Shown here piece by piece: positions 26,334-59,916 of a stretch of DNA of 64,000 nucleotides. Position numbers and translations under genes: made by a program. Location of the stretch: assembly GCF_020172685.1 (NCBI RefSeq), contig NZ_CP083986.1, forward strand, positions 875,437-939,436, in the 5' to 3' direction. The DNA is from [Mycobacterium] nativiensis (lineage in GTDB: Bacteria > Actinomycetota > Actinomycetes > Mycobacteriales > Mycobacteriaceae). The notes below the pieces were generated by a model, which ran no database searches, was not told the DNA's origin, and was given only the letters and a program-made list of their open reading frames with translations. The first letter of the stretch is position 1, and every line of letters begins with the position of its first letter.

Positions 26334-26436
26334 GGTGTCTTCCTTCCCGGCCCAGCTGCGGCCACGCTCGATCCGGGGAGCGTCGCCGGCAGCCTCAGCA
26401 TGAGCCCTCCGCCCGGACGCCCTTCCAATTTCGGCG

Positions 26437-26451
26437 GAGAACGGTATTCTC
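26437..26451. promoter_or_regulatory. Palindromic operator candidate GAGAA-N5-TTCTC
   Basis: The element GAGAACGGTATTCTC lies in the divergent region between the SRPBCC gene and the kinase. TATTCT (26446-26451... overlapping the right arm) could serve as a -10 box with TTCCAA (26423-26428) upstream. The same GAGAA-N5-TTCTC pattern recurs upstream of the dehydrogenases at 43526 and 59960. Confidence 0.55.
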
Positions 26452-26477
26452 TCTCCAGAGATTGAGAGGTGCGGACG

Positions 26478-27533
26478 ATGGATGGTGTCACGGAATCCCG
26501 ACTCGACGCGGCGGCGCTGGGGCGCCTGCTCGACGCCGCCGGCGCTCCCGGCCACGGCGAACTGCCGGTGCTCGAACCCCTGTCCGGCGGATCGCAGAAC
26601 GCGCTCTACCGGGTGGCCGGCCGCGGGACGCCGATGGTGCTGCGTATGCCGGGCACCCGGGCAGATGCCGCCCGGCTCGACGGGCTGCGCCGCGAGATCC
26701 GGCTGGTGCGCGCACTGACGGGAACCGATGTCCCGCATGCGGAACTGATCGCGGCCGACGACGCCGGTGGGGTGCTGGGGCAGCCCTGCTACGTGATGGC
26801 CGAGGTGGACGGCTGGAACTCCACCGGCGCCCAATGGCCCGCCCCGTTCGACACCGACCTGACGGCCCGGCGCGGCCTGGCATTCGAACTGGTCGACGGC
26901 GCGGCCCGGCTCGGCCGAGTGGACTGGCGCGCGCAGGGGCTCGACGGGTTCGGCCGGCCGGACGGATTCCACGAACGCCAGGTCGACCGCTGGCTGGCCT
27001 TCCTGAACAACTACCGGGTGCGGGAGCTGCCGGGCCTGGATGAGGCGGCGGACTGGCTGCGCGCCAACCGGCCCCGGCACTACACCCCGGGCATCATGCA
27101 CGGCGACTATCAGTTCGCCAACGTGATGTACGGCCACGGCGCCCCGGCGAAACTGGTCGCGATCATCGACTGGGAGATGACGACCATCGGCGATCCGCTG
27201 CTGGACCTGGCCTGGGCGCTGCTCGGCTACGACGGTGAAAACCCGCGCACGCAAGGCTATTACGCCGACCTCACCGGTATGCCCACCCGCACCGAACTGC
27301 TGGCGCACTACGAGCGGGTCAGTGGGCTCTCCACCGAGAACATCGACTACTATCTGGTGCTGGCGAACTTCAAGCTCGGCATCGTGCTGGAGAAGACTTA
27401 CGCTGCATCGGTGACCAGCGACAAGGTCGATCCGGAGATCGCTGCGGCGATGGGCCCGATGATCCCGCAGTTGATCGCCCAGGCCGCCGAGTTGGCCCGC
27501 TCCCTGCCATCGGTAGCGCGGCATGGGCGCTAA
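26478..27533 (+). CDS. APH-fold phosphotransferase (ACAD10/11- and LvaA-like kinase)
   Basis: A 351-residue kinase-fold protein. The catalytic loop HGDYQFANVM (residues about 208-217) and the metal-binding IIDWEMTTIGDPLLDLAW are intact, so it is likely an active phosphotransferase. In vertebrate ACAD10/11 and in the Pseudomonas levulinate operon (LvaA), this family phosphorylates the hydroxyl of 4-hydroxyacyl-CoA. Here it overlaps an SDR and is followed by an ACAD10/11-type dehydrogenase, the same set, so 4-hydroxyacyl-CoA is the favoured substrate rather than an antibiotic. ATG 26478 follows GAGAGG; the gene ends inside the SDR start. Confidence 0.82.
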   Translation: MDGVTESRLDAAALGRLLDAAGAPGHGELPVLEPLSGGSQNALYRVAGRGTPMVLRMPGTRADAARLDGLRREIRLVRALTGTDVPHAELIAADDAGGVLGQPCYVMAEVDGWNSTGAQWPAPFDTDLTARRGLAFELVDGAARLGRVDWRAQGLDGFGRPDGFHERQVDRWLAFLNNYRVRELPGLDEAADWLRANRPRHYTPGIMHGDYQFANVMYGHGAPAKLVAIIDWEMTTIGDPLLDLAWALLGYDGENPRTQGYYADLTGMPTRTELLAHYERVSGLSTENIDYYLVLANFKLGIVLEKTYAASVTSDKVDPEIAAAMGPMIPQLIAQAAELARSLPSVARHGR

Positions 27534-28296
27534 GACCGGGTTTGCGGACGGGCTGTTCGATCTGACCGACCGGGTGGTGCTGGTGACCGGCGGCAGCCGG
27601 GGCCTGGGCCGACAGATGGCGTTGGCGGCCGCGCGATGCGGCGCCGACGTAGTGATCGCCAGCCGCAAACTCGAGGCGTGTCAGGCCGCCGCCGCCGAGA
27701 TCGAGGCCGAGACCGGGCGCGCCGCCCTGCCCCACGCGGTACACGTGGGCCGCTGGGATCAGCTCGAGGGCCTGGTCGAGGCGGCCTATGAGCGGTTCGG
27801 CAAGGTCGACGTGCTGGTCAACAACGCGGGCATGTCGCCGGTCTACGACAAGCAGACCGACGTCACCGAGCAGATGTTCGACGCGGTGGTCAACCTCAAC
27901 CTCAAGGGCCCGTTTCGGTTGTCGGCGCTGGTCGGTGAGCGGATGATCGCGGCCGGGCGGGGATCGATCATCAACGTCAGCACGCACGGGTCGCTGCGGC
28001 CGCATCCGTCGTTCATCCCCTACGCCGCGTCCAAGGCCGGGCTCAACGCCATGACCGAGGCGCTGGCCCAGGCGTTCGGCCCCGCGGTGCGGGTCAACAC
28101 CTTGATGCCCGGTCCGTTTCTGACCGACATCTCGAAGGCGTGGAACTTCGGCGAGGCCGTCAACCCGTTCGGAGGCCATGCCTTGCAGCGGGCCGGCGAG
28201 CCACCCGAGATCATCGGCGCCGCACTGTTTTTGATGTCGGACGCATCCAGCTTCACCACCGGCTCGATCGTGCGGGTCGACGGCGGCATTCCGTAG
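27523..28296 (+). CDS. SDR family oxidoreductase
   Basis: Classical short-chain dehydrogenase, 257 residues. TGGSRGLGR and the basic ASRKL at the end of beta-2 suggest NADP(H) preference; NNAG and the Tyr167/Lys171 pair (PYAASKAG) are present. The residue thirteen before the tyrosine, normally the catalytic serine, is Thr154 with Ser153 next to it (NVSTHGS), a small oddity that could still support catalysis. The start overlaps the kinase stop by 11 bases, so they are coupled. In levulinate-type pathways an SDR interconverts the 4-keto or 3-hydroxy intermediate. Confidence 0.85.
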   Translation: MGAKTGFADGLFDLTDRVVLVTGGSRGLGRQMALAAARCGADVVIASRKLEACQAAAAEIEAETGRAALPHAVHVGRWDQLEGLVEAAYERFGKVDVLVNNAGMSPVYDKQTDVTEQMFDAVVNLNLKGPFRLSALVGERMIAAGRGSIINVSTHGSLRPHPSFIPYAASKAGLNAMTEALAQAFGPAVRVNTLMPGPFLTDISKAWNFGEAVNPFGGHALQRAGEPPEIIGAALFLMSDASSFTTGSIVRVDGGIP

Positions 28297-28308
28297 AAAG
28301 GGGCCGAC

Positions 28309-29607
28309 ATGGCATGGGATTTCTCCACCGAACCGGAGTTCCAGGCGAAGCTCGACTGGATCGGCGAGTTCGTGCGCGACGAGGTGGAACCACTCGAGGT
28401 GCTGTTCCCCGGCTGCGAATACCTGCCGCTGGATGAGCAGCGCCGCCGGATCGTCGACCCGCTCAAGGGCCGGGTGCGCGAGCAGGGGCTGTGGGCCCCG
28501 CACCTGGGCCCCGAGCTCGGCGGCCAGGGCTTCGGCGCGGTGAAGCTGGCGCTGATCAACGAGATCCTGGGCCGGTCCAGCTGGGCGCCGATCGTGTTCG
28601 GCACCCAGGCCCCCGACACCGGCAACGCCGAGATCCTGGCCCGGTTCGGTACCCCGGCTCAGAAGGAGAGCTATCTGGCCGGCCTGCTGTCCGGGGAGAT
28701 CTTCTCCTGCTTCTCGATGACCGAACCACAGGGCGGCGCCGACCCGCGAGTGTTCACCACCCGTGCGGTTCGCGAGGGTGACGAGTGGGTGATCACCGGG
28801 CGAAAGTACTTCTCCTCCAACGCCTCGGTGGCGTCGTTCTTCATCGTGGTGGCGATCACCGACCCGGATGTACCGGTGCATCGCGGGGCATCGACCTTCC
28901 TGATCCCGGCCGGCACACCGGGTCTGGTCATCGAAGCCACCCACCACCTGGTGGGTTCGCATCCGCACGAAGCCGGGCACTCGCTGGTGCACTACGACAA
29001 TGTGCGGGTGCCGGCGGACGCGATCCTCGGCGAGCCGGGGCAGGGCTTCGGAATCCTGCAGAACCGGCTCGCCGGTGGAAGGCTGCACCACGCCATGCGC
29101 TCCATCGGGGTGGCGCAGCGCGCCATCGACATGATGGCCCGGCGCGCCAAAAGCCGGTTCACCCAAGGCAGCTCGCTGGCCGACAAGCAGCTGGTGCAGG
29201 CGTTCATCGCCGACTCCTACGCCGAGCTGATCCCGTTCCGGCTGACGGTGCTGCACACCGCATGGCTGATCGACACCGCCGGGGAGCACGCGGCGCGCGC
29301 CGAGATCGGGGTCTGCAAGATCCTGGCGTCGCAGGTGCTCAAGTCGATCGGGCTGCGCGCCATCCAGGTGCACGGCGCGATGGGCCTGACCGAACAGCTG
29401 CCGCTGACGAACGTGCTGTTGGGCGGGGTGGCGCTCGGGCTGGCCGACGGCCCCACCGAGGCGCACAAGGTGAACCTGGCCCGGCTGCTGCTCAAAGACT
29501 ACGACGCCGAGGACCCGGAGTGGCCCAGCGAGTTCCTGGACAACCGCATAGCTGCCGCACGCGCGAAGTACGGCGACCTGGTTGACCGGATACCGGCGGT
29601 GCCATGA
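28309..29607 (+). CDS. Acyl-CoA dehydrogenase, ACAD10/11 (LvaC-like) type
   Basis: A 432-residue flavoprotein. The middle domain has SCFSMTEPQGGADPRVFTTRA and GRKYFSSNASVASFF; the C-terminus has RAIQVHGAMGLTEQLPLTN and the DGPTEAH segment (residues 380-386), a signature of ACAD10/11 relatives in place of the common GGTSEIQR ending. Such enzymes work with an APH-type kinase: the phosphorylated 4-hydroxyacyl-CoA loses phosphate to give an enoyl-CoA. AGAAAGGGG precedes ATG 28309. Stop overlaps the TetR start (ATGA). The pathway role is inferred from neighbours. Confidence 0.85.
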   Translation: MAWDFSTEPEFQAKLDWIGEFVRDEVEPLEVLFPGCEYLPLDEQRRRIVDPLKGRVREQGLWAPHLGPELGGQGFGAVKLALINEILGRSSWAPIVFGTQAPDTGNAEILARFGTPAQKESYLAGLLSGEIFSCFSMTEPQGGADPRVFTTRAVREGDEWVITGRKYFSSNASVASFFIVVAITDPDVPVHRGASTFLIPAGTPGLVIEATHHLVGSHPHEAGHSLVHYDNVRVPADAILGEPGQGFGILQNRLAGGRLHHAMRSIGVAQRAIDMMARRAKSRFTQGSSLADKQLVQAFIADSYAELIPFRLTVLHTAWLIDTAGEHAARAEIGVCKILASQVLKSIGLRAIQVHGAMGLTEQLPLTNVLLGGVALGLADGPTEAHKVNLARLLLKDYDAEDPEWPSEFLDNRIAAARAKYGDLVDRIPAVP

Positions 29608-30209
29608 CCCGCGTCACCGCCGCGGTGGACCGCGCCCTCGACGACCGGCAGCGCGAGGCCACTGCCGAGGTGGAGCGCATCCTGGACGCGGCGGTGACCG
29701 TGATGGCGCGCACCGCACCGGATGCGCCCCGGGTGTCCGACATCGTCGCCGAGGCGGGCTCGTCGAACAAGGCGTTCTACCGCTACTTCGCCGGGAAGGA
29801 CGACGTGATCCTGGCGGTCATGGAGCGCGGCGTCGGCATCGTGGTGTCCTACCTGGAACACCAGTTGGCCAAGGAGGCCACCGCAGCGGGCAAGGTGGCG
29901 CGCTGGATTCGCGGTGCGCTGGCACAGGTCTCCGACCCGCACCTGCTGAGCATGAGCCGAATGGCCAGTACGCAGCTGGGCCGCAGCACCGACCGTCGGC
30001 TGTCCGACGATGACATCCTGGCGCCGCTGCGCGGGCTGCTCGTCGAACCGGTGACCGCGCTGGGCGGTGACGACCCGCGCCGCGATGTCGATCTGGTCTT
30101 CGGCTGTACCTTGTCGACCATGCGTACTTACCTCAATGCCGGACAGCGGCCCAAGCGAGCCGACATCGATCATCTGGTGGCGTTCTGCCTGCGCGGGTTG
30201 GGCGTCTGA
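29604..30209 (+). CDS. TetR family transcriptional regulator
   Basis: A 201-residue regulator with an N-terminal helix-turn-helix (VSDIVAEAGSSNKAFYRYFAGKD, written here in two parts: VSDIVAEAGSS and NKAFYRYFAGKD). It is translationally coupled to the dehydrogenase before (ATGA) and the quinone reductase after (TGATG), which makes it a local regulator of this kinase/dehydrogenase operon. Its operator may be the GAGAA-N5-TTCTC palindrome at 26437, an inference from position. Confidence 0.9.
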   Translation: MTRVTAAVDRALDDRQREATAEVERILDAAVTVMARTAPDAPRVSDIVAEAGSSNKAFYRYFAGKDDVILAVMERGVGIVVSYLEHQLAKEATAAGKVARWIRGALAQVSDPHLLSMSRMASTQLGRSTDRRLSDDDILAPLRGLLVEPVTALGGDDPRRDVDLVFGCTLSTMRTYLNAGQRPKRADIDHLVAFCLRGLGV

Positions 30210-31177
30210 TGCGGGCCGTGGTCTGCCGCGAGTACGGCCCGCCGGAAGACCTGGTGATCGAGGAGCTTCCGGACCCCACGCCGGGACCCGGCACGATGGT
30301 GGTCCGGGTGCGGGCCGCCGCGGTCAACTTCCCCGACGTGCTGCTGATCGACGGCAAGTACCAGCTGAAGATCCCGCCGCCGTTCACGCCCGGCAGCGAG
30401 CTGGCCGGTGATGTGATCGCGGCCGGTGACGGGGTGCCGTTCGCTGTCGGCGACCGGGTGGTGGGTACGTCGTTCGTGGGAGGCTTCGCCGAGCAGGCGC
30501 TGGTGCCCGCCGCGGCGGCGACCGCCATCCCCGACGGCATCGACTACGCGGCCGCCGCCGGCTTCGGCGTCACCTACCGCACGGCGTATCACGCGCTGCG
30601 CTCGGTCGCCCAAGTGGCAGAGGGCGATTGGGTGGTGGTGCTGGGTGCGGCCGGCGGTGTCGGGCTGGCCGCGGTCGATCTGGCGGTGGCGATGGGCGCG
30701 AAAGTGCTAGCCGCGGCATCCAGCCCGGAGAAGCTCGAGGTGTGCCGGCAGCGTGGCGCGGCCGCGACCGTCGACTACGACGCCGAGGACCTCAAGACGC
30801 GGATCCGGGAGATCACCGGCGACGGCGCACAGGCGGTGCTCGACCCGGTCGGCGGTTCCTATGCCGAGCCGGCCCTGCGCAGTCTGGCCCGCGGCGGGCG
30901 GTTCATCACCCTCGGCTACGCCGCCGGGTCGATCCCGGCGATCCCGCTGAACCTGGTGATGCTCAAGGGCATCACGGTGCAGGGCATGGAGATCCGCACG
31001 TTCGCCACCGATTTCCCGGCGGAGAACGAGCGTGACCTCGCCGAACTGCACCAGCTGTTCGCCGACGGCAAGGTCAGCCCGTACATCGGTGCCCGCTTCC
31101 CGCTCGCCGAGACCGCGACGGCGCTGCGCTACGTCGCCGACCGCAAGGCCGTCGGCAAGGTCATCATCGACGTCTGA
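30209..31177 (+). CDS. NADPH:quinone oxidoreductase family protein
   Basis: Zinc-free medium-chain dehydrogenase/reductase, 322 residues. MRAVVCREYGPPEDL, NFPDVLLIDGKY, PFTPGSELAGDV and the nucleotide motif VLGAAGGVGLAAVDLA are typical of the quinone-oxidoreductase/enoyl-reductase branch; catalytic-zinc ligands of alcohol dehydrogenases are absent. It is the last gene of the operon that begins with the kinase. It may reduce an enoyl-CoA or quinone. The lipocalin-like gene overlaps its 3' end on the opposite strand. Confidence 0.88.
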   Translation: MRAVVCREYGPPEDLVIEELPDPTPGPGTMVVRVRAAAVNFPDVLLIDGKYQLKIPPPFTPGSELAGDVIAAGDGVPFAVGDRVVGTSFVGGFAEQALVPAAAATAIPDGIDYAAAAGFGVTYRTAYHALRSVAQVAEGDWVVVLGAAGGVGLAAVDLAVAMGAKVLAAASSPEKLEVCRQRGAAATVDYDAEDLKTRIREITGDGAQAVLDPVGGSYAEPALRSLARGGRFITLGYAAGSIPAIPLNLVMLKGITVQGMEIRTFATDFPAENERDLAELHQLFADGKVSPYIGARFPLAETATALRYVADRKAVGKVIIDV

Positions 31178-33079: not shown

Positions 33080-33151
33080 CTCCCGGCATGGGTGGAATTG
33101 GCTGCCCGGACGGGTTTCGAGTATGAGTTCTGTTGCGCCGGAGTGCGACCG

Positions 33152-34222
33152 ATGACTTCCGTGACACAGATACCGCGGCATCCGCACGACGTCACGCGCG
33201 AGTGGCTCTCGGGCGCCCTGGGGGTCGAGGTGGCATCGGTCGACGTGCTGCCGGTGGGGACCGGCCAGACCGGGGCGACCTATCGGGTGTCGGCGACCTA
33301 CGCGGCCAACCCGGCGGGCCTGCCGGAGACCTTCGTGATCAAACTGCCGGCCGGTGACGACGCCGTGCGGGATCGGGTGGTGCTGGGCTACCGCAGCGAA
33401 TGCGCCTTCTACGCATCGGTCGCCGATCGGGTCGCGATACCGATCCCGCAGGTCTACCACTGCGAAATCAATGCTGAGGCAACCGAATACGCGTTGCTGC
33501 TCGCCGACTGTGCCCCCGCCGCCCAGGGCGACCAGATCGCCGGCTGCGAAGCGGGGCAGGCCCGGCTGGCGGTGACCGCGCTGGCCGGGCTGCACGCACC
33601 GACCTGGTGCGACGAGCGGTGGCTGACCTTCCCGGGTCTGGCGATGACACAGTTGGACGAGGCCGGCGCCAAGGGCATGGGCGACATCGCCCGGATGTGT
33701 GCGGCGACCACCGTCGAGCGGCTCGGCGAAAAACTCGGGGAGGCCGACTGCGCGACGCTGACCGCCGCGCTGGACGTGATCACCCCCTGGGTGTCGGCGC
33801 CGCTCGGGCGGTTCGCCCTGATCCACGGCGACTACCGGCTGGACAACATGCTGTTCAGTCCCGACGGCGAGCAGATCTGGATCGTCGACTGGCAGACGCT
33901 GGGCGTCGGCCTGCCGGCCCGGGACCTGGCCTTCTTCACTGCCACCAGTCTGCGTCCCGAGCTGCGTTCGGCGATCGAGGCCGATCTGGTCACGGCCTAT
34001 CATTGCGCGCTGCTGGGCCACGGCGTGACCGACTACGACCGGGAAACCTGTTGGCAGGACTACCGGTTCGGCGTGCTGCAGGCGCCGCTGATCTGTGCCC
34101 TAGGGCTGGTGTTCGCCACCGGAACCGACCGCGGCGACGACATGTTCGTGGCCATGCTGCGGCGCGCTTGTCAGGCGGTCCGCGACCTGAAAACACTGGA
34201 ACTGGTGCAGGAGGTCTGCTGA
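33152..34222 (+). CDS. APH-fold phosphotransferase family protein
   Basis: A 356-residue kinase-fold protein with the catalytic IHGDYRLDNML and metal-binding WIVDWQTLGVGLPARDLAFF intact, plus an N-terminal lobe with a conserved VIKLP (ATP-binding lysine). It is a different subgroup from the kinase at 26478 and resembles ecdysteroid-kinase-like and choline-kinase-like proteins seen in mycobacterial lipid clusters. I chose ATG 33152 (MTSVTQIPRH), with GGAG upstream, over an in-frame start at 33092. The crotonase begins two bases after the stop. Substrate unknown; probably a hydroxylated acyl-CoA or alcohol. Confidence 0.78.
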   Translation: MTSVTQIPRHPHDVTREWLSGALGVEVASVDVLPVGTGQTGATYRVSATYAANPAGLPETFVIKLPAGDDAVRDRVVLGYRSECAFYASVADRVAIPIPQVYHCEINAEATEYALLLADCAPAAQGDQIAGCEAGQARLAVTALAGLHAPTWCDERWLTFPGLAMTQLDEAGAKGMGDIARMCAATTVERLGEKLGEADCATLTAALDVITPWVSAPLGRFALIHGDYRLDNMLFSPDGEQIWIVDWQTLGVGLPARDLAFFTATSLRPELRSAIEADLVTAYHCALLGHGVTDYDRETCWQDYRFGVLQAPLICALGLVFATGTDRGDDMFVAMLRRACQAVRDLKTLELVQEVC

Positions 34223-34224
34223 AG

Positions 34225-35049
34225 ATGGGTGCCGAAACACAGGGGCCGCGGCCGCCCGAGGGGGACTGGCTGGGGACGCCGTTCCTGACGTTTCGGCGGG
34301 AGGGGCCGATCGCGGTCTGCACCCTGGATCGCCCCGAGGCCCGTAACGCGATGACACCCGCCATGTACTTCGGCCTGCGCTACGCGGTCGGCCGGGTCAA
34401 CGAGGACCCGGACCTGGCCGGGTTGTTGATCACCGGCACCGGCGATGTGTTCGCACCGGGCGGCGACATGGGCGGAGGCGGGGCCGACGACTGGATCACG
34501 TTCGGGGCCGCGCTGGGCATGGACGTCACCCCGTTCGACGCGTTGCGCAGCTCGGTCAAGCCGGTCGTGTCCGCGGTCAACGGGCTGTGCCAGGGCGGCG
34601 GGCTGCAGATCGCCCTGTGCAGTGATGTGGCGGTGGTCAGCGAGCGGGCCAGCTTCCGGGTGCCCGAGCTGTTCCGCGGTATCGCCGACACCTACTACAG
34701 CCAGATGCTGGCGCGGGTGGTCGGCCCGGTTCGCACCCGCGACCTGATGTTCACCGGCAGAACGTTCGGCGCGCAGGAGGCGCTGGATTGGGGCATGGTG
34801 GCACGTGTGGTCCCGCACGACGAGCTGCCCGACGTCGCGGCTGAGGTGCTGGCGCAATGCTGCCGGACGGCGCCCGGCGCACGGGCGGTGGTCAAGGCGA
34901 CGTTGGACTCCTACCTGGGCCTGTATGACCGGATCGGGATGAGCAACAGCCTGGGTTCACCGGAGGCGATCGAGGGCTTCCGCGCCTTCAAGCAGCGCAG
35001 GTCACCGGAGTGGGTGCACCCGGCGCTGCGACTCGACGGACGTCTATAA
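34225..35049 (+). CDS. Enoyl-CoA hydratase/isomerase family protein
   Basis: Crotonase-fold protein of 274 residues with a Pro-rich N-terminal extension. VCTLDRPEARNAMTPA, the oxyanion segment GDVFAPGGDMGGG and the loop NGLCQGGGLQIALCSDVAV are present. In the second active-site region (FRVPELFRGIADTYYSQ) the first hydratase Glu appears retained as PELF. It directly follows the second kinase, so its substrate is probably the kinase pathway product. Activity could be hydration or C-O elimination. Confidence 0.85.
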   Translation: MGAETQGPRPPEGDWLGTPFLTFRREGPIAVCTLDRPEARNAMTPAMYFGLRYAVGRVNEDPDLAGLLITGTGDVFAPGGDMGGGGADDWITFGAALGMDVTPFDALRSSVKPVVSAVNGLCQGGGLQIALCSDVAVVSERASFRVPELFRGIADTYYSQMLARVVGPVRTRDLMFTGRTFGAQEALDWGMVARVVPHDELPDVAAEVLAQCCRTAPGARAVVKATLDSYLGLYDRIGMSNSLGSPEAIEGFRAFKQRRSPEWVHPALRLDGRL

Positions 35050-35172: not shown

Positions 35173-35982
35173 ATGGGGATGAAGGACTTGTCCATCCGGT
35201 GGTCCCCGGAACTGCTGATGGGACGGCTGTCGGGGCCGATGGAGGCTGTCGGCGGGCTGTTCTCGATGTCGGTGGACGCGGTCAAGTTCTTGTTCCGGCG
35301 CCCGTTTCAGGCCCGCGAATTTCTGGAGCAGTCCTGGTTCGTCGCCCGGGTGTCACTGGCGCCGACCCTGCTGGTGGCGATCCCCTTCACCGTGCTGGTC
35401 AGCTTCATCCTCAACATCCTGCTGCGGGAACTCGGCGCCGCGGACCTGTCCGGTGCCGGTGCGGCGTTCGGGGCGGTGACCCAGGTCGGGCCGATGGTGA
35501 CCGTGCTGATCGTCGCCGGCGCGGGGGCCACCGCGATGTGCGCCGATCTGGGGTCGCGCACCATCCGCGAAGAGATCGAAGCCATGGAGGTCCTCGGCAT
35601 CAACCCGGTGCAGCGGCTGGTGACACCACGCATGCTGGCCGCCGGGCTGGTGGCACTGCTGCTGAACAGCCTCGTGGTGATCATCGGGATCCTCGGCGGC
35701 TACGCGTTCTCGGTCTTCGTGCAGGACGTCAACCCGGGTGCGTTCGCGGCCGGTCTCACCCTGCTCACCGGAGTCCCTGAGTTGATCATCTCCAGCGTCA
35801 AAGCGGCACTGTTCGGGCTGATCGCCGGGATGGTGGCCTGCTACCGCGGCCTGACCATCTCCGGCGGGGGCGCCAAGGCCGTGGGCAACGCGGTGAACGA
35901 GACCGTGGTCTACGCCTTCATGTCGCTGTTCGTCGTCAACGTGGTCGTCACCGCGATCGGCATCAAGATGACGGTGCGCTGA
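35173..35982 (+). CDS. YrbEA/MlaE family ABC permease
   Basis: Integral membrane permease of 269 residues from the MlaE/YrbE family, part of Mce/Mla lipid transporters. Six hydrophobic segments are visible and the conserved cytoplasmic motif EEIEAMEVLGINP with VTPRMLA follows the third. GGAGGAG precedes ATG 35173. Normally a YrbEA-YrbEB pair heads an mce operon; here no mce gene follows. The partner YrbEB starts three bases after the stop. Energy would come from the MceG (Mkl) ATPase encoded elsewhere. Likely function is import of a lipid or sterol that the neighbouring genes degrade. Confidence 0.88.
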   Translation: MGMKDLSIRWSPELLMGRLSGPMEAVGGLFSMSVDAVKFLFRRPFQAREFLEQSWFVARVSLAPTLLVAIPFTVLVSFILNILLRELGAADLSGAGAAFGAVTQVGPMVTVLIVAGAGATAMCADLGSRTIREEIEAMEVLGINPVQRLVTPRMLAAGLVALLLNSLVVIIGILGGYAFSVFVQDVNPGAFAAGLTLLTGVPELIISSVKAALFGLIAGMVACYRGLTISGGGAKAVGNAVNETVVYAFMSLFVVNVVVTAIGIKMTVR

Positions 35983-35985
35983 GCC

Positions 35986-36840
35986 GTGGCGCTGCGTGCC
36001 CTGTCGGCTGTCTATCCGGGTGTCACCCGGCAGCTCCGGCGTCCGGTCGCCTCACTCGGGCGGATCGGGGACCACACGCTGTTCTACGGCAAGGCCATCG
36101 GCACCACGCCGTTCGCGCTCACCCGGTACCGCCGCGAGGTGATTCGCCTGATCGCCGAGATCAGCATGGGCACCGGGACCCTGGCGATGATCGGCGGCAC
36201 CGTGGTGATCGTCGGCTTCCTGACCCTGGCCGCCGGCGGCACGCTCGCCGTGCAGGGCTACAGCTCGTTGGGCAACATCGGCATCGAGGCGCTGACCGGG
36301 TTCCTGGCGGCGTTCATCAACGTCCGCATCTCGGCGCCTGTGGTCGCCGGTATCGGGCTGGCGGCCACCTTCGGCGCCGGGGTGACCGCGCAGCTGGGGG
36401 CGATGCGGATCAACGAGGAGATCGACGCGCTGGAGTCGATGGCGATCCGTCCGATCGCCTATCTGGTCAGCACCCGCATCGTGGCCGGGTTGTTCGCGAT
36501 CACCCCGCTGTACGCGATCGCGGTGATCCTGTCGTTCATCGCCAGCCGCTTCACCACCGTCTTCCTGTTCGGGCAGTCGGCCGGCCTGTATGACCACTAC
36601 TTCCGGACCTTCCTGAATCCCATCGACCTGCTCTGGTCGTTCCTGCAGGCCTTCCTGATGGCGATCACCATCCTGTTGATCCACACCTACTTCGGCTATT
36701 TCGCCGCGGGCGGGCCCGCCGGTGTCGGGGTGGCGGTGGGCAATGCGGTGCGCACCTCGCTGATCGTGGTCGTCTCGGTGACGTTGCTGGTCTCGCTGTC
36801 GGTCTACGGCGCCAGCGGCAACTTCAACCTGGCCGGATAG
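35986..36840 (+). CDS. YrbEB/MlaE family ABC permease
   Basis: Second permease subunit, 284 residues, from GTG 35986. It shows the family motif EEIDALESMAIRPIAYLVSTR and several membrane segments (TLAMIGGTVVIVGFLTLAAG, then FAITPLYAIAVILSFIAS). It should form a heterodimer with the YrbEA protein. The next gene is an acyl-CoA mutase with its own promoter rather than mceA, which makes this a free-standing permease pair. Confidence 0.88.
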   Translation: MALRALSAVYPGVTRQLRRPVASLGRIGDHTLFYGKAIGTTPFALTRYRREVIRLIAEISMGTGTLAMIGGTVVIVGFLTLAAGGTLAVQGYSSLGNIGIEALTGFLAAFINVRISAPVVAGIGLAATFGAGVTAQLGAMRINEEIDALESMAIRPIAYLVSTRIVAGLFAITPLYAIAVILSFIASRFTTVFLFGQSAGLYDHYFRTFLNPIDLLWSFLQAFLMAITILLIHTYFGYFAAGGPAGVGVAVGNAVRTSLIVVVSVTLLVSLSVYGASGNFNLAG

Positions 36841-36884
36841 CCGGTGGTGACCAGGGAGTATTCCGCCGTGTGACCCAAGTGGTA

Positions 36885-36913
36885 TTGGCATTCTCATTTT
36901 TGGCAAGTACGGT
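36885..36913 (+). promoter_or_regulatory. Promoter of acyl-CoA mutase operon with ATTCTC half-site
   Basis: TTGGCA (36885-36890), 17-base spacer, TACGGT (36908-36913) gives a start point near 36920, essentially leaderless for ATG 36922. The spacer holds CATTCTCAT (36889-36897), the half-site shared with 35056-35078 and 42525-42542. Confidence 0.55.
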
Positions 36914-36921
36914 ATCCACTG

Positions 36922-38498
<1,577 letters not shown>

Positions 38499-38499
<1 letters not shown>

Positions 38500-38933
38500 T
38501 GACCTCTTCTGCTTCTGCAACCTCTTTGGGGTCCAACCCGACCCGGGTCCTGGTGGCCAAACCCGGCCTGGACGGCCACGACCGCGGCGCCAAGATCGTC
38601 GCGCGGACCCTGCGTGACGCCGGCTTCGAGGTTATCTACACCGGCATCCGGCAGAAGGTGGAGGACATCGTGGCCACCGCGTTGCAAGAGGACGTGGCGG
38701 TGATCGGGCTGAGCATTCTGTCCGGTGCGCACATCGCGTTGACCGCCCGCGTCATCGAGGGGCTGCGTGCCGCCGACGCCGGCGACATCGCGGTGGTGGT
38801 CGGCGGCACCATTCCGCAGGCCGATGTGCCCAAGCTGTCCGCGCTGGGTGCGGCGGCGGTATTCCCCACCGGAACCTCGCTGGAGGATCTGGTGACCGGC
38901 GTCCGGCAGGTCGTCGCGAAGACGGAGGTGTAG
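38499..38933 (+). CDS. Acyl-CoA mutase small subunit, cobalamin-binding
   Basis: A 144-residue B12-binding protein. The base-off/His-on motif D25-x-H27-x-x-G ([12 protein letters not shown]) is intact, followed by GLSILSGAH and VVVGGTIP typical of the cobalamin domain. The first twelve residues are a Ser/Ala-rich tail. ATG overlaps the large-subunit stop. This split arrangement is that of archaeal-type and isobutyryl/hydroxyisobutyryl-CoA mutases rather than of the standard bacterial MutAB. Confidence 0.92.
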
Positions 38934-38937
38934 CGGT

Positions 38938-39891
38938 ATGCGGCTGGGGGTGATGATCGGCGCCGAGCGCGGCGACATGGCGCGCAAAGTCACCAAGCTG
39001 ATCGCCGACATTCAGTGGGCCGAGCAGGCCGGCCTGGCCACGGCGTGGATGCCGCAGGTGCCCGACGACTTCGATCTGTTGACCATGGTGGCGCTGATGG
39101 CCTCGCACACCACCCGGATCGAACTCGGCACCGCCGTGGTGCCGTTGCAGGCCCAGCACCCGATCGCACTTGCCCGCCAAGCCCTTTCGGTGAACGCGAT
39201 CGCGGGCGGCCGGCTGGCGCTGGGCGTCGGGCCGTCGCACCACTGGATCATCGCCGACATGCTCGGCCTGCCGTATGACAAGCCGGCCGCATACACCCGG
39301 GACTATCTGCAGGTTCTCAACGCCGCACTGTCGGGACCCGGCCCTGTTGACGTGGAGAACGACCACTTCACCGTGCACAACCCGACCGCGCTCGGCGCCG
39401 AGACCAAGATGCCGGTGCTGGTGGCCGCGCTGGGACCGGTGATGCTGCAGATCGCCGGCGAGCACGCCGACGGCACGTCGCTGTGGATGGCCGACGAGAA
39501 GGCCATCGCCGAGCACATCGCGCCGAAGATCAACAAGGCCGCGGCCGACGCCGGCAAACCCGCGCCGCGCATCGTCGCCGGTATTCCGGTCACGCTGTGC
39601 GCGAACTCCGAGATCGAGGCCGCCAAGGAGCGCGCCAACCGGATCCTGGCGGAGGCCGAGACCTCACCGAACTATCAGCGACTGCTCGACCGCGGTTCGG
39701 CCCGTGATGTCGGCGATCTGTGCGCGGCGGGTGACGAGGAGTCAATCCTGAAGCGATTCAAGCAGTTCGCCGACGCCGGCGTGACCGACCTGTCGGTGCG
39801 ACTGCTGCCGATCGGCGACACCCGCGACGAGCTGATCGCCTCCAAGTACCGCACCCGCGAGGTGATCGCCGAACTAGCCAAGGCCGTCTAG
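38938..39891 (+). CDS. LLM-class F420-dependent oxidoreductase
   Basis: A 317-residue TIM-barrel protein of the luciferase-like monooxygenase superfamily, in the actinobacterial subgroup that uses coenzyme F420. RLGVMIGAERGDMAR, RIELGTAVVPLQAQHP and LGVGPSHHWI are typical. F420 enzymes of this kind carry out hydride transfer to alcohols, ketones or enoyl compounds. It lies four bases after the cobalamin subunit and directly abuts the CoA-transferase, so it belongs to the mutase operon. Substrate unknown. Confidence 0.85.
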   Translation: MRLGVMIGAERGDMARKVTKLIADIQWAEQAGLATAWMPQVPDDFDLLTMVALMASHTTRIELGTAVVPLQAQHPIALARQALSVNAIAGGRLALGVGPSHHWIIADMLGLPYDKPAAYTRDYLQVLNAALSGPGPVDVENDHFTVHNPTALGAETKMPVLVAALGPVMLQIAGEHADGTSLWMADEKAIAEHIAPKINKAAADAGKPAPRIVAGIPVTLCANSEIEAAKERANRILAEAETSPNYQRLLDRGSARDVGDLCAAGDEESILKRFKQFADAGVTDLSVRLLPIGDTRDELIASKYRTREVIAELAKAV

Positions 39892-40917
39892 GTGAGCGGA
39901 CCGCTTGCCGGAATCCGCATCCTCGAAGTGGGGGTGATGCTGGCCGGCCCATACGCGACCATGCTGCTGGCCGATCTCGGGGCCGAAGTCATCAAGATCG
40001 AACCGCCGGGCGGCGAGATCTCCCGCCAGGTGGGGCCGAGCTACTTCGCCAGCCTCAACCGCAACAAGCGCAGCGTTCAATTGGACCTTCGGTCGCCGCA
40101 GGGGCAGGCGCGGCTCGGGGAGCTGGTCGCCGATTCCCATGCGCTGCTGGTGAATATGAAGCCGTCGGTGATCCGCAAGTTGGGGCTCACCTATTCGGCG
40201 CTGCGGCGCTTCAACGAGTCGATCGTGTGCGTGGCGCTGACCGGCTTCGGGCTGGACGGCGGCGACGAGCCGGCCTTCGACTACGTGATCCAGGCGGCCA
40301 CCGGGGTGGCCGCGATGACCGGCGACCCGGACGGACCGCCGACACTGCCGGGCTACTCGTCGGCGGACAACTCCACCGGGCTGACGGCGGCGCTGGGGCT
40401 GTTGGCTCAGATCGTCAGCGGGCATGGCGGCCAGGTCGAGGTATCCCTGCAGGATGTGATGCTGTCCCAGCTGAACTACCGGGCATCGGCCTACCTCAAC
40501 GACGGCCTCGAACCGCAGCGGTATGCCCACGGCGCACACTCGTACTACGTTCCGGCGCAGCTCTTTCCGACCGCCGACGGACATCTTGCCCTGTTCGTCA
40601 CCCACGACGGGTTCTGGAAAACCTTCGCCGTGCAGGCCGGGATCGACGGCTTCACCACCATGGCCGAGCGCGTCACCCGCCGCGACGAGGTCCTTGCGGT
40701 GGTCACCGCGGCCCTGGCCTGCGACACCGCGGCCGGCTGGGAGCGACGCCTGCGTCCACTCGGTGTGCCGGCGGCCGCGGTGCGCACCCTGCCCGAAGCG
40801 CTCAAGGAACATCCGGAAATGGTTGTCACGGCCGGGGATTTCCGGCTGGTCGGCAGCCCGATCCGGATCGCCGGGTACGAACCGGTGTACCGGCCGCCGC
40901 CGGCGCTGGACGACTAA
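39892..40917 (+). CDS. CaiB/BaiF family III CoA-transferase
   Basis: A 341-residue type III CoA-transferase, moving CoA between carboxylic acids through an aspartyl anhydride. LAGIRILEVGVMLAGPYATMLLADLGAEVIK gives the N-terminal fold (two adjacent segments), and SADNSTGL carries the predicted catalytic Asp. It is slightly shorter than usual at the C-terminus (typically 380-400). GTG 39892 follows the stop of the LLM gene without a gap. It may activate the acid that becomes the mutase substrate. Confidence 0.87.
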   Translation: MSGPLAGIRILEVGVMLAGPYATMLLADLGAEVIKIEPPGGEISRQVGPSYFASLNRNKRSVQLDLRSPQGQARLGELVADSHALLVNMKPSVIRKLGLTYSALRRFNESIVCVALTGFGLDGGDEPAFDYVIQAATGVAAMTGDPDGPPTLPGYSSADNSTGLTAALGLLAQIVSGHGGQVEVSLQDVMLSQLNYRASAYLNDGLEPQRYAHGAHSYYVPAQLFPTADGHLALFVTHDGFWKTFAVQAGIDGFTTMAERVTRRDEVLAVVTAALACDTAAGWERRLRPLGVPAAAVRTLPEALKEHPEMVVTAGDFRLVGSPIRIAGYEPVYRPPPALDD

Positions 40918-49361: not shown

Positions 49362-50095
49362 GGGTCGGCCTGTCCCGAAACCCGGTGCAGAGTCATCGAA
49401 TACCGGTAGGCGTCGCCGGCATGGGTGTTCACCGTGACCTGTGCGATCTCGCCCTCGGACGTGGTGTAGCTGCGCTGCATCTGCAGCGCGGCGGTGCCGG
49501 CCCCGATGGCCAGCGTCTTGGCCAGCTCCGGGGTGATGATCACCGCGCGAATGTGTTGGCGAACCTCGACGACGCTGACCCCGAACACGTCCTCGATCAG
49601 CGGGAAGATCGGGCCCGAGTGGCGCTGCAGCAGGCGGCCGACACCGGCGAACGCCCGGTTGATGTAGTACTCGGTCCGGCAGATCGGCGTCGCGTGGCCG
49701 GCCACGCGCCGGTTGCCGCGCACCGACAGCCATTCGGTGCCCGTCGGCAGGCCGGTGCGCGCGGCGATCTCGTCGTCGACGGTGACCATCGCATTGGAGT
49801 CGATCTCGAACGAGGAGCCGGCCGCGAACGCGACCAGGTCGTTGATCGACACCACGTCCTGGGCGTAGCAGCTCGTCGCGGTGCGGGGGATCACCACGGT
49901 ACCCGCCCGCGGCCGGGACACGACGAGGTTGTCCTCCCGCAGTCGGCGCAGTGCCTCGCGAATCGTGTAGCGGCTCACCGTGAACCGTTCGCACAGTTCG
50001 TGTTCGGTGGGCAACTGCGAGCCCACCGGATACACCCCGTCGGCGATCTCCTTGCGCAGCTCCCGCGCCACCCGCAGGTAGCGGTGGTCGGTCAC
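49358..50095 (-). CDS. GntR family regulator (HutC/UTRA type)
   Basis: A 245-residue repressor with an N-terminal winged helix (LPTEHELCERFTVSRYTIRE, residues about 28-47) and a C-terminal UTRA effector domain (ICRTEYYINRAFAGV ... ALQMQRSYTTSEGEIAQ). GTG 50095 and the stop overlap both neighbours by four bases, so it is translated with them. UTRA regulators sense small acids, amines or sugars. The divergent promoter region at 51750-51798 contains a GTTCTGC-N5-GCAGAAC palindrome that could be its operator. Confidence 0.9.
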   Translation of the reverse strand: MTDHRYLRVARELRKEIADGVYPVGSQLPTEHELCERFTVSRYTIREALRRLREDNLVVSRPRAGTVVIPRTATSCYAQDVVSINDLVAFAAGSSFEIDSNAMVTVDDEIAARTGLPTGTEWLSVRGNRRVAGHATPICRTEYYINRAFAGVGRLLQRHSGPIFPLIEDVFGVSVVEVRQHIRAVIITPELAKTLAIGAGTAALQMQRSYTTSEGEIAQVTVNTHAGDAYRYSMTLHRVSGQADP

Positions 50096-51708
50096 GATCG
50101 CACCGGGTGTAGTGCCAGCACGCTGCCGTCTCCGTCGCCCGCGACGAACAGCTCCCCGCCGGGCCCGCGCGCGATGCCCGCGAACGGGCCCTGCGGCCCC
50201 GAGAACGGCGGCATGCCTCGCAGCGGCTTGGGCTGCACACCCGGCGGCGGCCCGATCGGCAGCCCGGAGGCGATGGCGTGCCGGGCGCCGGAGTCGAGGT
50301 CGGCGGCGAGCACCTGCCGGGCGCCGGCGTCGACGATGTAGAGCCGGCGGTCGGCCACCAGGATGCCCTGCGGGCGCACCAGCCCGTCGACCACCGTCTC
50401 GATGCCTGCCCCGCCGACGCGCACCACCCGCCCGGCGCCGGATTCGGCCACCAGGTAGCTCCCGTCCTCGGCGGGGACGATCCCGACCGGGTCGGCCAGG
50501 CCGCCGGCCAGCACTTCGACGGTGCCGGCGTGCACGCGCAGCACCCGGCCGGTGCCGAACTCGGTGACCACCACCCCGGCGGGCCCCACCGCGACCCCGT
50601 AGAGCTGGTCGAAGCCGTCGGCGAGCACCTCGCTGTGGGCCTGCGCCGGGACATATCGGCTGACCTGACCGCCGGAGGTGGCCACCACGAACTCGCCGGG
50701 GCCGTCCGCCGCCACGCCCCGGATGAATCCGGGATAGCCGGGGGTGAACAGCATTCCGAGTGTTTCCAGCCGGCCGCCGGCACCGACCGCGTAGAAGTAG
50801 GTGCCGTCGGCGACGTAGAGGGCGCCGGCAGCATCGGTGGTGAGATCCAGCGGCCAGTTCAGCCCGCCCGGCAGCACCGCGGTCGCAGCGCCGCCGGCGC
50901 CGATCTCGGTGATCTCGCCGCTGAAGTTGGAGACGAACAGCCGGCCGTCGGCGTAGGTGCAGTTGTCCAGCCCGGGCTGCAGCTGCGCCAGCACGGTGCG
51001 CTCGCCGGTGCGCGGGTCGATGCGCAGCACCTGACCGCTGGCGGCCTGGGTGGAGACGATGCTGCCGTCGGCGTCGAACTTCACCGAGTCGGGCACGCCC
51101 AGGTCACCGGCAACCCGTTGCGGCGCAACGTCGTCGGCGTAGGGGTCGATGCGCCAGATCTCGTTGGCGGTCATCACCGGGAAGTACAGCAGGCCGTCGG
51201 GCCCCACCTCCATGGCGTTGGGTGAGGGCAGGTTCTCGGCCAGGACTCGTTGCGCTCCGGTGGCGCGATCCAGTTCCATCAGCCGTCCGCCGTCGCGGCA
51301 CTCCCCGACGAACAGGCGGTCCCGGTGCACCGTGATCCCGTTTGCGCACGGCAGGTCGTCGCGCAGCACGCGAGCGCGTCCGGACGGGTCGAGCACGCTG
51401 ACCCGGGCGTCCATCACCTCGGTGGCGTAGAGGTTGCCGGCGTCGTCGAATGCCACGTCGTCGGGTGCCACGACATCCCCGCCGCGTGCGCTCACGACCG
51501 CCAGGTCGCCGGTGGTCACGTCCAGTGCGCTGATCTGGCTGCCGGTCACCTGCGCGACGTAGACCCGGCCGTCGGGGCCGGTCCGCAGGCCGTTGGCGCC
51601 GAACAGTCGACTGGGTTCGGTGACGCGTTCCAGGCGCCAGCCCGGCGCGACGGTGGGGCTGGCGAGCACTTCGCGGGGGAGCATGACTTCGGACGGTATC
51701 AAGCGCAC
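50092..51708 (-). CDS. SMP-30/NHL-type beta-propeller protein
   Basis: A 538-residue repeat protein: blades recur at about 45 residues with patterns such as GPDGRVYVAQV, FDDAGNLYATEV, GPDGLLYFPVM and VGPAGVVVTEFGTG, as in gluconolactonase-like or streptogramin-lyase propellers, roughly two propellers long. No signal peptide or lipobox is visible, so it is probably cytoplasmic. It may hydrolyse a lactone. GTG 51708 gives MRLIPSEV; ATG 51684 is an alternative. It is first in the minus-strand operon and divergent from the CoA-transferase operon. Confidence 0.75.
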   Translation of the reverse strand: MRLIPSEVMLPREVLASPTVAPGWRLERVTEPSRLFGANGLRTGPDGRVYVAQVTGSQISALDVTTGDLAVVSARGGDVVAPDDVAFDDAGNLYATEVMDARVSVLDPSGRARVLRDDLPCANGITVHRDRLFVGECRDGGRLMELDRATGAQRVLAENLPSPNAMEVGPDGLLYFPVMTANEIWRIDPYADDVAPQRVAGDLGVPDSVKFDADGSIVSTQAASGQVLRIDPRTGERTVLAQLQPGLDNCTYADGRLFVSNFSGEITEIGAGGAATAVLPGGLNWPLDLTTDAAGALYVADGTYFYAVGAGGRLETLGMLFTPGYPGFIRGVAADGPGEFVVATSGGQVSRYVPAQAHSEVLADGFDQLYGVAVGPAGVVVTEFGTGRVLRVHAGTVEVLAGGLADPVGIVPAEDGSYLVAESGAGRVVRVGGAGIETVVDGLVRPQGILVADRRLYIVDAGARQVLAADLDSGARHAIASGLPIGPPPGVQPKPLRGMPPFSGPQGPFAGIARGPGGELFVAGDGDGSVLALHPVRS

Positions 51709-59896: not shown

Positions 59897-59916
59897 ACGA
59901 GAATGTTATTCTCGTT
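59896..59916. promoter_or_regulatory. Perfect 21-base palindrome, GAGAA-N5-TTCTC type
   Basis: Arms AACGAGAAT and ATTCTCGTT flank GTT (59896-59916); it starts in the stop codon of the ThDP gene and lies 43 bases before the next start. It is the most complete copy of the GAGAA-N5-TTCTC pattern. It suggests an internal regulated promoter for the dehydrogenase-SDR-CoA-transferase section. Confidence 0.65.

Follow-up and report, generated by a model that had tools for sequence, protein, structure and literature searches.

A probable ATP-driven hydroxyacyl-CoA dehydration module with its own TetR-family regulator in [Mycobacterium] nativiensis

Introduction

The reaction of mammalian ACAD11, a member of the acyl-CoA dehydrogenase (ACAD) family, is redox-neutral and yet requires a redox-active FAD; R626, H634 and R637 contact the 4-phosphate according to modelling, D753 is the catalytic base, and the most disruptive mutants are non-conservative changes of R626, H634 and R637 (Rashan et al. 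2025, PMC12440821, available sections). For the related ACAD10, the accessible part of PMC11342911 describes a kinase that prefers the R form approximately fourfold and that is restricted in cells to 4-hydroxyhexanoate over 5- and 6-hydroxyhexanoate. In bacteria, LvaA, LvaD and LvaC are enzymes of the kinase, short-chain dehydrogenase/reductase (SDR) and ACAD types, respectively, that take 4-oxoacyl-CoA to enoyl-CoA (excerpts of PMC6692424 and PMC9399607). Here, we analyse a five-gene operon at positions 26478–31177 of a 64,000-nucleotide stretch of the [Mycobacterium] nativiensis genome (the window; contig NZ_CP083986.1, 875,437–939,436), which encodes an aminoglycoside phosphotransferase (APH)-fold kinase, an SDR, an ACAD-fold flavoprotein, a TetR-family regulator and a quinone-reductase-type oxidoreductase. 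Its sequence makes it probable that this TetR-controlled module feeds hydroxylated acyl-CoA into β-oxidation through ATP-driven loss of the hydroxyl group, in the manner of ACAD10/11 and LvaA/LvaC.

Few mycobacterial ACAD-like proteins have a known function. The substrate of one with a solved structure, the Mycobacterium abscessus protein 4HR3, was called unknown in 2024, and the protein was proposed as one that may metabolise sterols (PMC11153573, in the portion available). A related gap is described for the 25-phosphosteroids, whose partner lyase was unknown to the authors in 2021 (PMC8449060, see also PMC7411048 and PMC11061730; statements from the available parts of these papers).

Results

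The ACAD-like protein carries the phosphate-contact residues of ACAD11

The window ACAD is 36% identical to mouse ACAD11 across 390 aligned residues, and the alignment places its R253, H261, R264 and D380 at the positions of R626, H634, R637 and D753, respectively. Two further residues are shared, H224 (H597 in the mouse protein) and R258 (R631). The usual catalytic Glu of the ACADs is thus replaced by an Asp, D380, and the DGPTEAH signature that an earlier note on this DNA had pointed out is indeed present, as LADGPTEAH, with its first Asp aligned to D753. The HCMR motif of ACAD11 is not retained exactly, as Cys635 is replaced by Ala and the motif reads HAMR. Together, these residues suggest that the protein annotated as a dehydrogenase is probably no dehydrogenase at all. 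It reached no NCBIfam cut-off, and a structural model (pLDDT 80.5, built with 25 sequences) gave 4hr3 and ACAD11 as its best structural matches (E = 1e-28 to 1e-25), followed by a next group near E = 1e-21. The UniRef name of a relative at 92% identity (P0001) starts with "(R)-benzylsuccinyl-CoA d...", which is probably a misleading transferred name.

The R-H-R triad is rare among the ACADs of the same organism. Stretches of the genome (5.28 Mb, a single contig, its positions given here as C1 coordinates) gave 69 ACAD-like frames, of which 55 were aligned and 14, weak or over-long, were set aside; four of the 55 carry the triad and the other 51 do not, and a pattern search of the 14 unaligned frames found no more matches in an ACAD-like position. 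The four are the window ACAD, C1:3099080 (HHCMR), C1:236994 (THVMR) and a frame near C1:337 kb (THVMR). The Asp is seen in three of them, the frame near C1:337 kb not being readable to its end. An APH match lies within 1.5 kb of three of the four triad ACADs and of two of the 65 others (Fisher p = 7e-4).

The phylogeny relied on is a 37-row ACAD tree, midpoint-rooted, with the conventional ACADs on long branches and LvaC not among its rows; a quick tree of 114 rows gave long-branch warnings and was not relied on. The triad ACADs form one clade (support 100/99) apart from the seven conventional ACADs included. Within it, ACAD11, 4HR3, the frame at C1:3099080 and proteins of Caballeronia, Burkholderia and Rhodococcus erythropolis make up an ACAD11 clade (100/100). 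Outside that clade, the window ACAD is placed in its own group (100/98), the join of both being supported at 92/82. By its sequence, the window ACAD is therefore placed as a member of a sister subfamily to ACAD11 and not as its orthologue. The Cys of the HCMR motif does not define the ACAD11 clade, since 4HR3 and the R. erythropolis row, both inside it, read HAMR. Record titles place the window subfamily in Myxococcota, Pseudomonadota and Actinomycetota. Among the open-licence literature matches listed, no title or abstract opening dealt with this subfamily or with a mycobacterial 4-hydroxyacyl-CoA kinase or lyase.

The kinase retains the catalytic and CoA-contact residues

D210 and N215 of the window kinase align with the catalytic Asp and Asn of ACAD11 (D220 and N225), and R167 and R72 with its two CoA-contact Arg residues, R176 and the Arg beside the αC Glu (R86 in the numbering of the paper, position 84 by the printed letters). 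All the elements that mark the kinases of the LvaA and ACAD11 type are thus kept, namely the catalytic Asp and Asn, the αC Arg and the Arg of the RQV element. In a comparison of 73 kinases near triad ACADs with three of five unlinked kinases of the same genome, the linked kinases kept the Asp in 72 cases, the Asn in 72, the αC Arg in 70 and the R176 equivalent in 64; L030, which lies next to a conventional ACAD, lacks both Arg residues. Three kinases whose catalytic-loop pattern was not matched were dropped: the unlinked L058 and L064, and the linked Novosphingobium kinase L016, which reads HGDI and still has the RQV..W element.

By sequence, six solved relatives were found at E ≤ 0.001, two of them ACAD11 entries; 9o56 scores 125 bits, 3dxp 111 bits and the ACAD11 kinase domain 84 bits, and the match to 25-hydroxysteroid kinase (25-HSK) reaches 47 bits. 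The model of the kinase (pLDDT 73.7) is weak around the catalytic loop; it matches 3dxp first, followed by 25-HSK and Rv3168. The closest relative of the window kinase in its own genome is L062 (C1:4880606-4881697, 215 bits), in whose 13-kb stretch no ACAD was found.

Linkage of the kinase and ACAD genes

The linkage of the two genes was examined in 118 same-genus genomes, where an ACAD orthologue (E ≤ 1e-190) is present in 52 and a kinase orthologue (E ≤ 1e-110) in 54. In each of the 52 ACAD genomes the kinase shares its strand and contig with the ACAD and is separated from it by 768–897 bases between the two matches (median 794), a spacing that leaves room for the SDR, and only two of the 66 ACAD-less genomes (G217 and G243) contain the kinase. 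This difference, 52/52 against 2/66, puts the linkage beyond chance; the genomes are related and hence not independent, so that it is the joint patchy presence that counts. A wider family sample contains the ACAD orthologue in 10 of 151 genomes (own included) and in two of 31 genera. At nine further orthologous loci the order kinase-SDR-ACAD-TetR is the same throughout, and the reductase follows in eight.

More distant relatives, at 47–61% identity, are found on plasmids of Streptomyces, Rhodococcus, Massilia, Variovorax, Caulobacter, Sphingomonas and Novosphingobium. In all ten plasmid records examined, chosen among 40 listed matches and including three at 39–45% identity, the kinase adjoins the ACAD or is one or two genes off. 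Close relatives of the SDR occur in the modules of Streptomyces (352 bits), R. rhodochrous (303 bits) and Massilia (284 bits). The R. rhodochrous plasmid pGD02.2.1 combines its SDR with relatives of the reductase (335 bits) and TetR (110 bits) and with a distant kinase (57 bits), so that an exchange of kinases is possible. When titled genome contigs were scanned, 62 of the best 80 among 567 confirmed loci showed a kinase within 2.5 kb of the ACAD. As GGR[LVI]HHAM was one of the two scan patterns, a count of the motif over these 80 loci is biased and was not used as evidence; in L145 and L113, the motif or Asp matches fall at the wrong places in the frame.

Operon organisation and a candidate operator

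The earlier observation that kinase, SDR, ACAD, TetR and quinone reductase form one overlapping operon is confirmed. The five genes (Table 1) are co-directional and have the base composition of coding sequence, with a third-position GC content of 0.88–0.91 each, and three of the four junctions overlap (kinase/SDR by 11 bases, ACAD/TetR by 4 and TetR/reductase by 1), the SDR and ACAD genes being separated by a gap of 12 bases. The kinase frame could start as early as a GTG at 26469, and the ATG adopted here matches the 350-residue length of its nearest relative (P0121). The top match of the kinase is from [Mycobacterium] crassicus (95%) and that of the ACAD from M. talmoniae (92%). Among the NCBIfam models listed for the SDR, only a generic "glucose 1-dehydrogenase" subfamily is exceeded at its cut-off, and the reductase reaches 236 bits against a PIG3-type model with a cut-off of 296.8.

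Table 1. Genes of the operon and its candidate operator in the window.
Feature	Position	Strand	Remarks
Kinase, APH-fold	26478..27533	+	Pfam APH, 104 bits; proposed 4-hydroxyacyl-CoA kinase of the LvaA / ACAD11 kinase-domain type
SDR oxidoreductase	27523..28296	+	Pfam adh_short/adh_short_C2
ACAD-fold flavoprotein	28309..29607	+	ACAD N, middle and C domains; proposed phosphate-eliminating enzyme
TetR-family regulator	29604..30209	+	Pfam TetR_N; proposed operon repressor
MDR/quinone-reductase-type NAD(P)H oxidoreductase	30209..31177	+	NCBIfam PIG3-type match below cut-off
Candidate TetR operator GGAGAACGGTATTCTCT	26436..26452	.	Palindrome, 25 bases 5' of the kinase ATG

The regions upstream of the kinase share the palindrome GGAGAA(Y)G(N)TATTCTC(Y) in all ten orthologous operons, the window included; its arms reach 12 bases in some orthologues, one flank deviates at its first base in L158, and the remaining upstream sequence is hardly conserved. 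The 17-mer was searched in the window and in seven other genomes, five of which had helped to define the motif and two of which (G169 and G210) had not. Without mismatch, it occurs once in each of the seven, just 5' of the kinase, and with one mismatch four times elsewhere in the same genomes. The TetR protein has one other match in its own genome at E ≤ 1e-6, of 34 bits. The 17-base palindrome is probably the operator of the TetR, and autoregulation by the operon's own TetR is likely, given the conservation of the palindrome, the position of the exact matches directly before the kinase and the single weak paralogue of the regulator. As a whole, the operon has the appearance of a self-regulated unit. 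A search for a sigma-70-like promoter found none, and terminator-like sites are at chance level (three observed against 1.7 expected).

A wider TetR regulon was considered and rejected. Seven other, looser 15-base sites (0–1 mismatch) are present in the genome, one in the window and five within 4.34–4.37 Mb together with P450, Rieske, ACAD and CoA-ligase genes; they are not assigned to this TetR because the exact 17-mer is restricted to the operon in all seven relatives. GAGAAT-N3-ATTCTC palindromes occur at window position 59898-59914, before an ACAD gene, and at 4.34–4.37 Mb of the genome, and perhaps mark the catabolic regulon of another regulator.

Other modules and neighbouring genes

Two further kinase, SDR and ACAD sets were found in the genome. 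The module at C1:3097277-3100321 (L021) has the order kinase-SDR-ACAD, an exact HHCMR motif and 52% identity to the ACAD domain of mouse ACAD11; on these sequence grounds it appears a better candidate than the window operon for an lva-like function or for the handling of 4-hydroxy fatty acids. The third module (L022, C1:236994-239233 and beyond) consists of an ACAD (THVMR, VYDGP), a kinase and an SDR, with a KshA-type Rieske oxygenase and a CoA ligase nearby; the tree places this ACAD outside the ACAD11 clade and the window subfamily alike. Elsewhere, for six mycobacterial members of the window subfamily (L103, L118, L130, L135, L140 and L147) no kinase was found within ~8 kb on either side.

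Downstream of the operon, at window 33092-35049, an enoyl-CoA hydratase gene overlaps that of another APH/EcKL-type kinase, distinct from the kinase of the operon; hydratase relatives (65–67%) adjoin the reductase of the orthologous operon in three other-genus genomes. Window 35173-40917 encodes an MlaE/YrbE-type permease, a methylmalonyl-CoA-mutase-type large subunit (525 residues), a 144-residue frame that is perhaps its B12 subunit, a luciferase-like monooxygenase and a CoA-transferase III. At 50092-51708, amid acyl-CoA genes, lies an SMP-30/strictosidine-synthase-like protein of 538 residues, possibly a lactonase.

Discussion

A pathway can be proposed in which the SDR would interconvert 4-oxo- and 4-hydroxyacyl-CoA like LvaD, by analogy, and here act in the direction of the 4-hydroxy form. 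The kinase, to judge from its conserved residues, would hold the CoA moiety and phosphorylate the 4-hydroxyl group. In the ACAD-like protein, R253, H261 and R264 would then grip the phosphate while D380 takes the α proton, and the FAD may be used transiently as phosphate leaves to give the 2-enoyl-CoA with no net oxidation, as the ACAD11 mutants and deaza-FAD data suggest. The quinone-reductase-type enzyme might reduce a related enone or enoyl group, and the TetR probably represses the operon through the palindrome at 26436–26452.

Several observations weigh against this assignment. HAMR replaces HCMR in the ACAD, and no report testing the Cys alone was found in the available parts of the literature. 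No kinase was found in the available stretch at 18 of the 80 subfamily loci, 11 of which, six of them mycobacterial, have at least 5 kb on both sides, so that adjacency of ACAD and kinase is not obligatory; moreover, two of the 62 positive loci have weak kinase matches (L098, 41 bits, and L123, 32 bits). The R176 equivalent is missing or unalignable in nine of the 73 linked kinases, and the kinase residues are not specific, as L049 and L062 of the same genome keep all four and are not beside a triad ACAD. By sequence, 9o56 (named "aminoglycoside phosphotransferase" by its depositors) and 3dxp outrank the ACAD11 kinase domain, which is absent among the 50 structural matches listed for the kinase model; the second structural match, 25-HSK, acts on an alcohol without CoA.

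The loci without a kinase, the plain annotation of relatives as acyl-CoA dehydrogenase family proteins and the APH matches near two triad-less ACADs of the same genome would all fit an ordinary acyl-CoA dehydrogenase beside an unrelated APH kinase. We nevertheless regard this as quite improbable: the phosphate triad is complete, Asp replaces the catalytic Glu, and the co-occurrence with the kinase at near-fixed spacing has no exception in the 52 genomes. Still more improbable is an antibiotic-modifying phosphotransferase, which the APH fold, weak APH(3') model matches and the depositors' name of the top solved relative might suggest. The kinase shares its operon with acyl-CoA enzymes, and two ACAD11 entries are among its six closest solved relatives; both aminoglycoside and capreomycin phosphotransferase were rejected as assignments, with matches far under the curated cut-offs (28.6 bits against 205 for APH(3') and 24.1 against 390 for capreomycin phosphotransferase).

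The earlier note had joined the kinase and ACAD in a phosphoacyl-CoA route and linked it to levulinate, lactones and 4-hydroxydecanoate. At the level of sequence, the proposed chemistry is well backed by the residues known from the ACAD11 mutants, the phylogeny and the linkage within the genus, but no evidence of its own was found for these substrates. A mycobacterial lva operon for true levulinate (4-oxopentanoate) catabolism is suggested by three enzyme types matching LvaA, LvaD and LvaC as these are described in the available excerpts; against it, neither an acyl-CoA ligase (LvaE), LvaB, the regulator LvaR nor a transporter is encoded in the operon, the ACAD lies outside the ACAD11 clade (in a tree without LvaC), and a closer ACAD11-type set is present at C1:3097277-3100321. 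The argument from LvaB is softened by the P. citronellolis cluster, from which lvaB is likewise missing according to the accessible text. Because ligase, LvaB and lva regulator are absent and a closer set exists elsewhere, the levulinate label was dropped: levulinate is unlikely as the specific substrate, and the earlier assignment was probably too narrow. A cyclic or branched hydroxyacyl-CoA, terpenoid- or steroid-derived, dehydrated by a 25-HSK-like kinase with the ACAD as phosphate lyase, would be a sub-case of the same chemistry that differs in substrate. We consider it possible, if rather doubtful. The 25-HSK chains at ranks 2, 3 and 5 among the Protein Data Bank matches of the kinase model point in this direction, as does the third module near its KshA-type Rieske oxygenase; the kinase sequence is, however, closer to the ACAD11 kinase domain than to 25-HSK, and the authors describing 25-HSK knew of no 25-phosphosteroid lyase (PMC8449060, available part). 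Neighbouring genes give some encouragement, with P450 (seven), nitronate-monooxygenase family (three), CoA-transferase III (three) and thiolase C-domain (three) proteins by Pfam (14 of the 80 loci, 120 of 144 listed proteins, those above 650 residues left out, 25 of 49 families listed), but these are general catabolic families, and an assignment of the substrate from the neighbours was rejected for that reason.

ATP-driven loss of the hydroxyl group from an acyl-CoA, as by ACAD10/11 and LvaA/LvaC, hence remains the probable role of the operon. Tentatively, and with considerably more doubt than trust, the subfamily may represent a widespread ATP-driven dehydration of bulky hydroxyacyl-CoAs (cyclic, branched or terpenoid/steroid-derived) by a redox-neutral phospho-lyase, with three modules (the window, C1:3.10 Mb and C1:0.24 Mb) coexisting in one mycobacterium. 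The signature singles out a small set of ACADs that probably eliminate phosphate rather than oxidise, and ties this set to a kinase; it also yields a candidate operator with its regulator and hints at what the M. abscessus protein 4HR3 may do. A route that was elucidated for mammals in 2024–2025 is thereby extended to a separate bacterial subfamily.

Comparison with known systems

With ACAD10 and ACAD11 (PMC12440821, PMC11342911), the window module shares the pairing of a kinase and an ACAD-fold lyase, the HGD...N core and CoA-contact Arg of the kinase, and the active-site signature R-x4-R-x2-H-x2-R with D-G-P; it differs in having kinase and ACAD as individual proteins rather than joined in a single polypeptide, in reading HAMR for HCMR, in falling into a separate clade, and in adding an SDR, a TetR and an MDR reductase of its own. 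As in the Pseudomonas putida lva operon, kinase, SDR and ACAD are encoded together; LvaB, LvaE, LvaR and LvaF/G have no counterpart, a TetR is present instead, and the order is kinase-SDR-ACAD (available excerpts of PMC6692424 and PMC9399607). LvaA and LvaC were compared through their published description. The 25-HSK of Sterolibacterium denitrificans (9FSG/9FT5; PMC8449060, in the part available) is likewise APH-like and turns a hydroxyl into a leaving group by phosphorylation, but its substrate is a tertiary alcohol that bears no CoA, and it is distant in sequence. Closest among solved structures to the window ACAD, by sequence (250 bits) as well as by structure, is 4HR3 of M. abscessus, a "putative acyl-CoA dehydrogenase" that has the HHAMR and LADGP signatures in common with the window ACAD and clusters with ACAD11 and not with the window subfamily; both the triad for phosphate and the Asp are present in 4HR3, and its sequence suggests that a role as phosphoacyl-CoA lyase fits it better than sterol metabolism.

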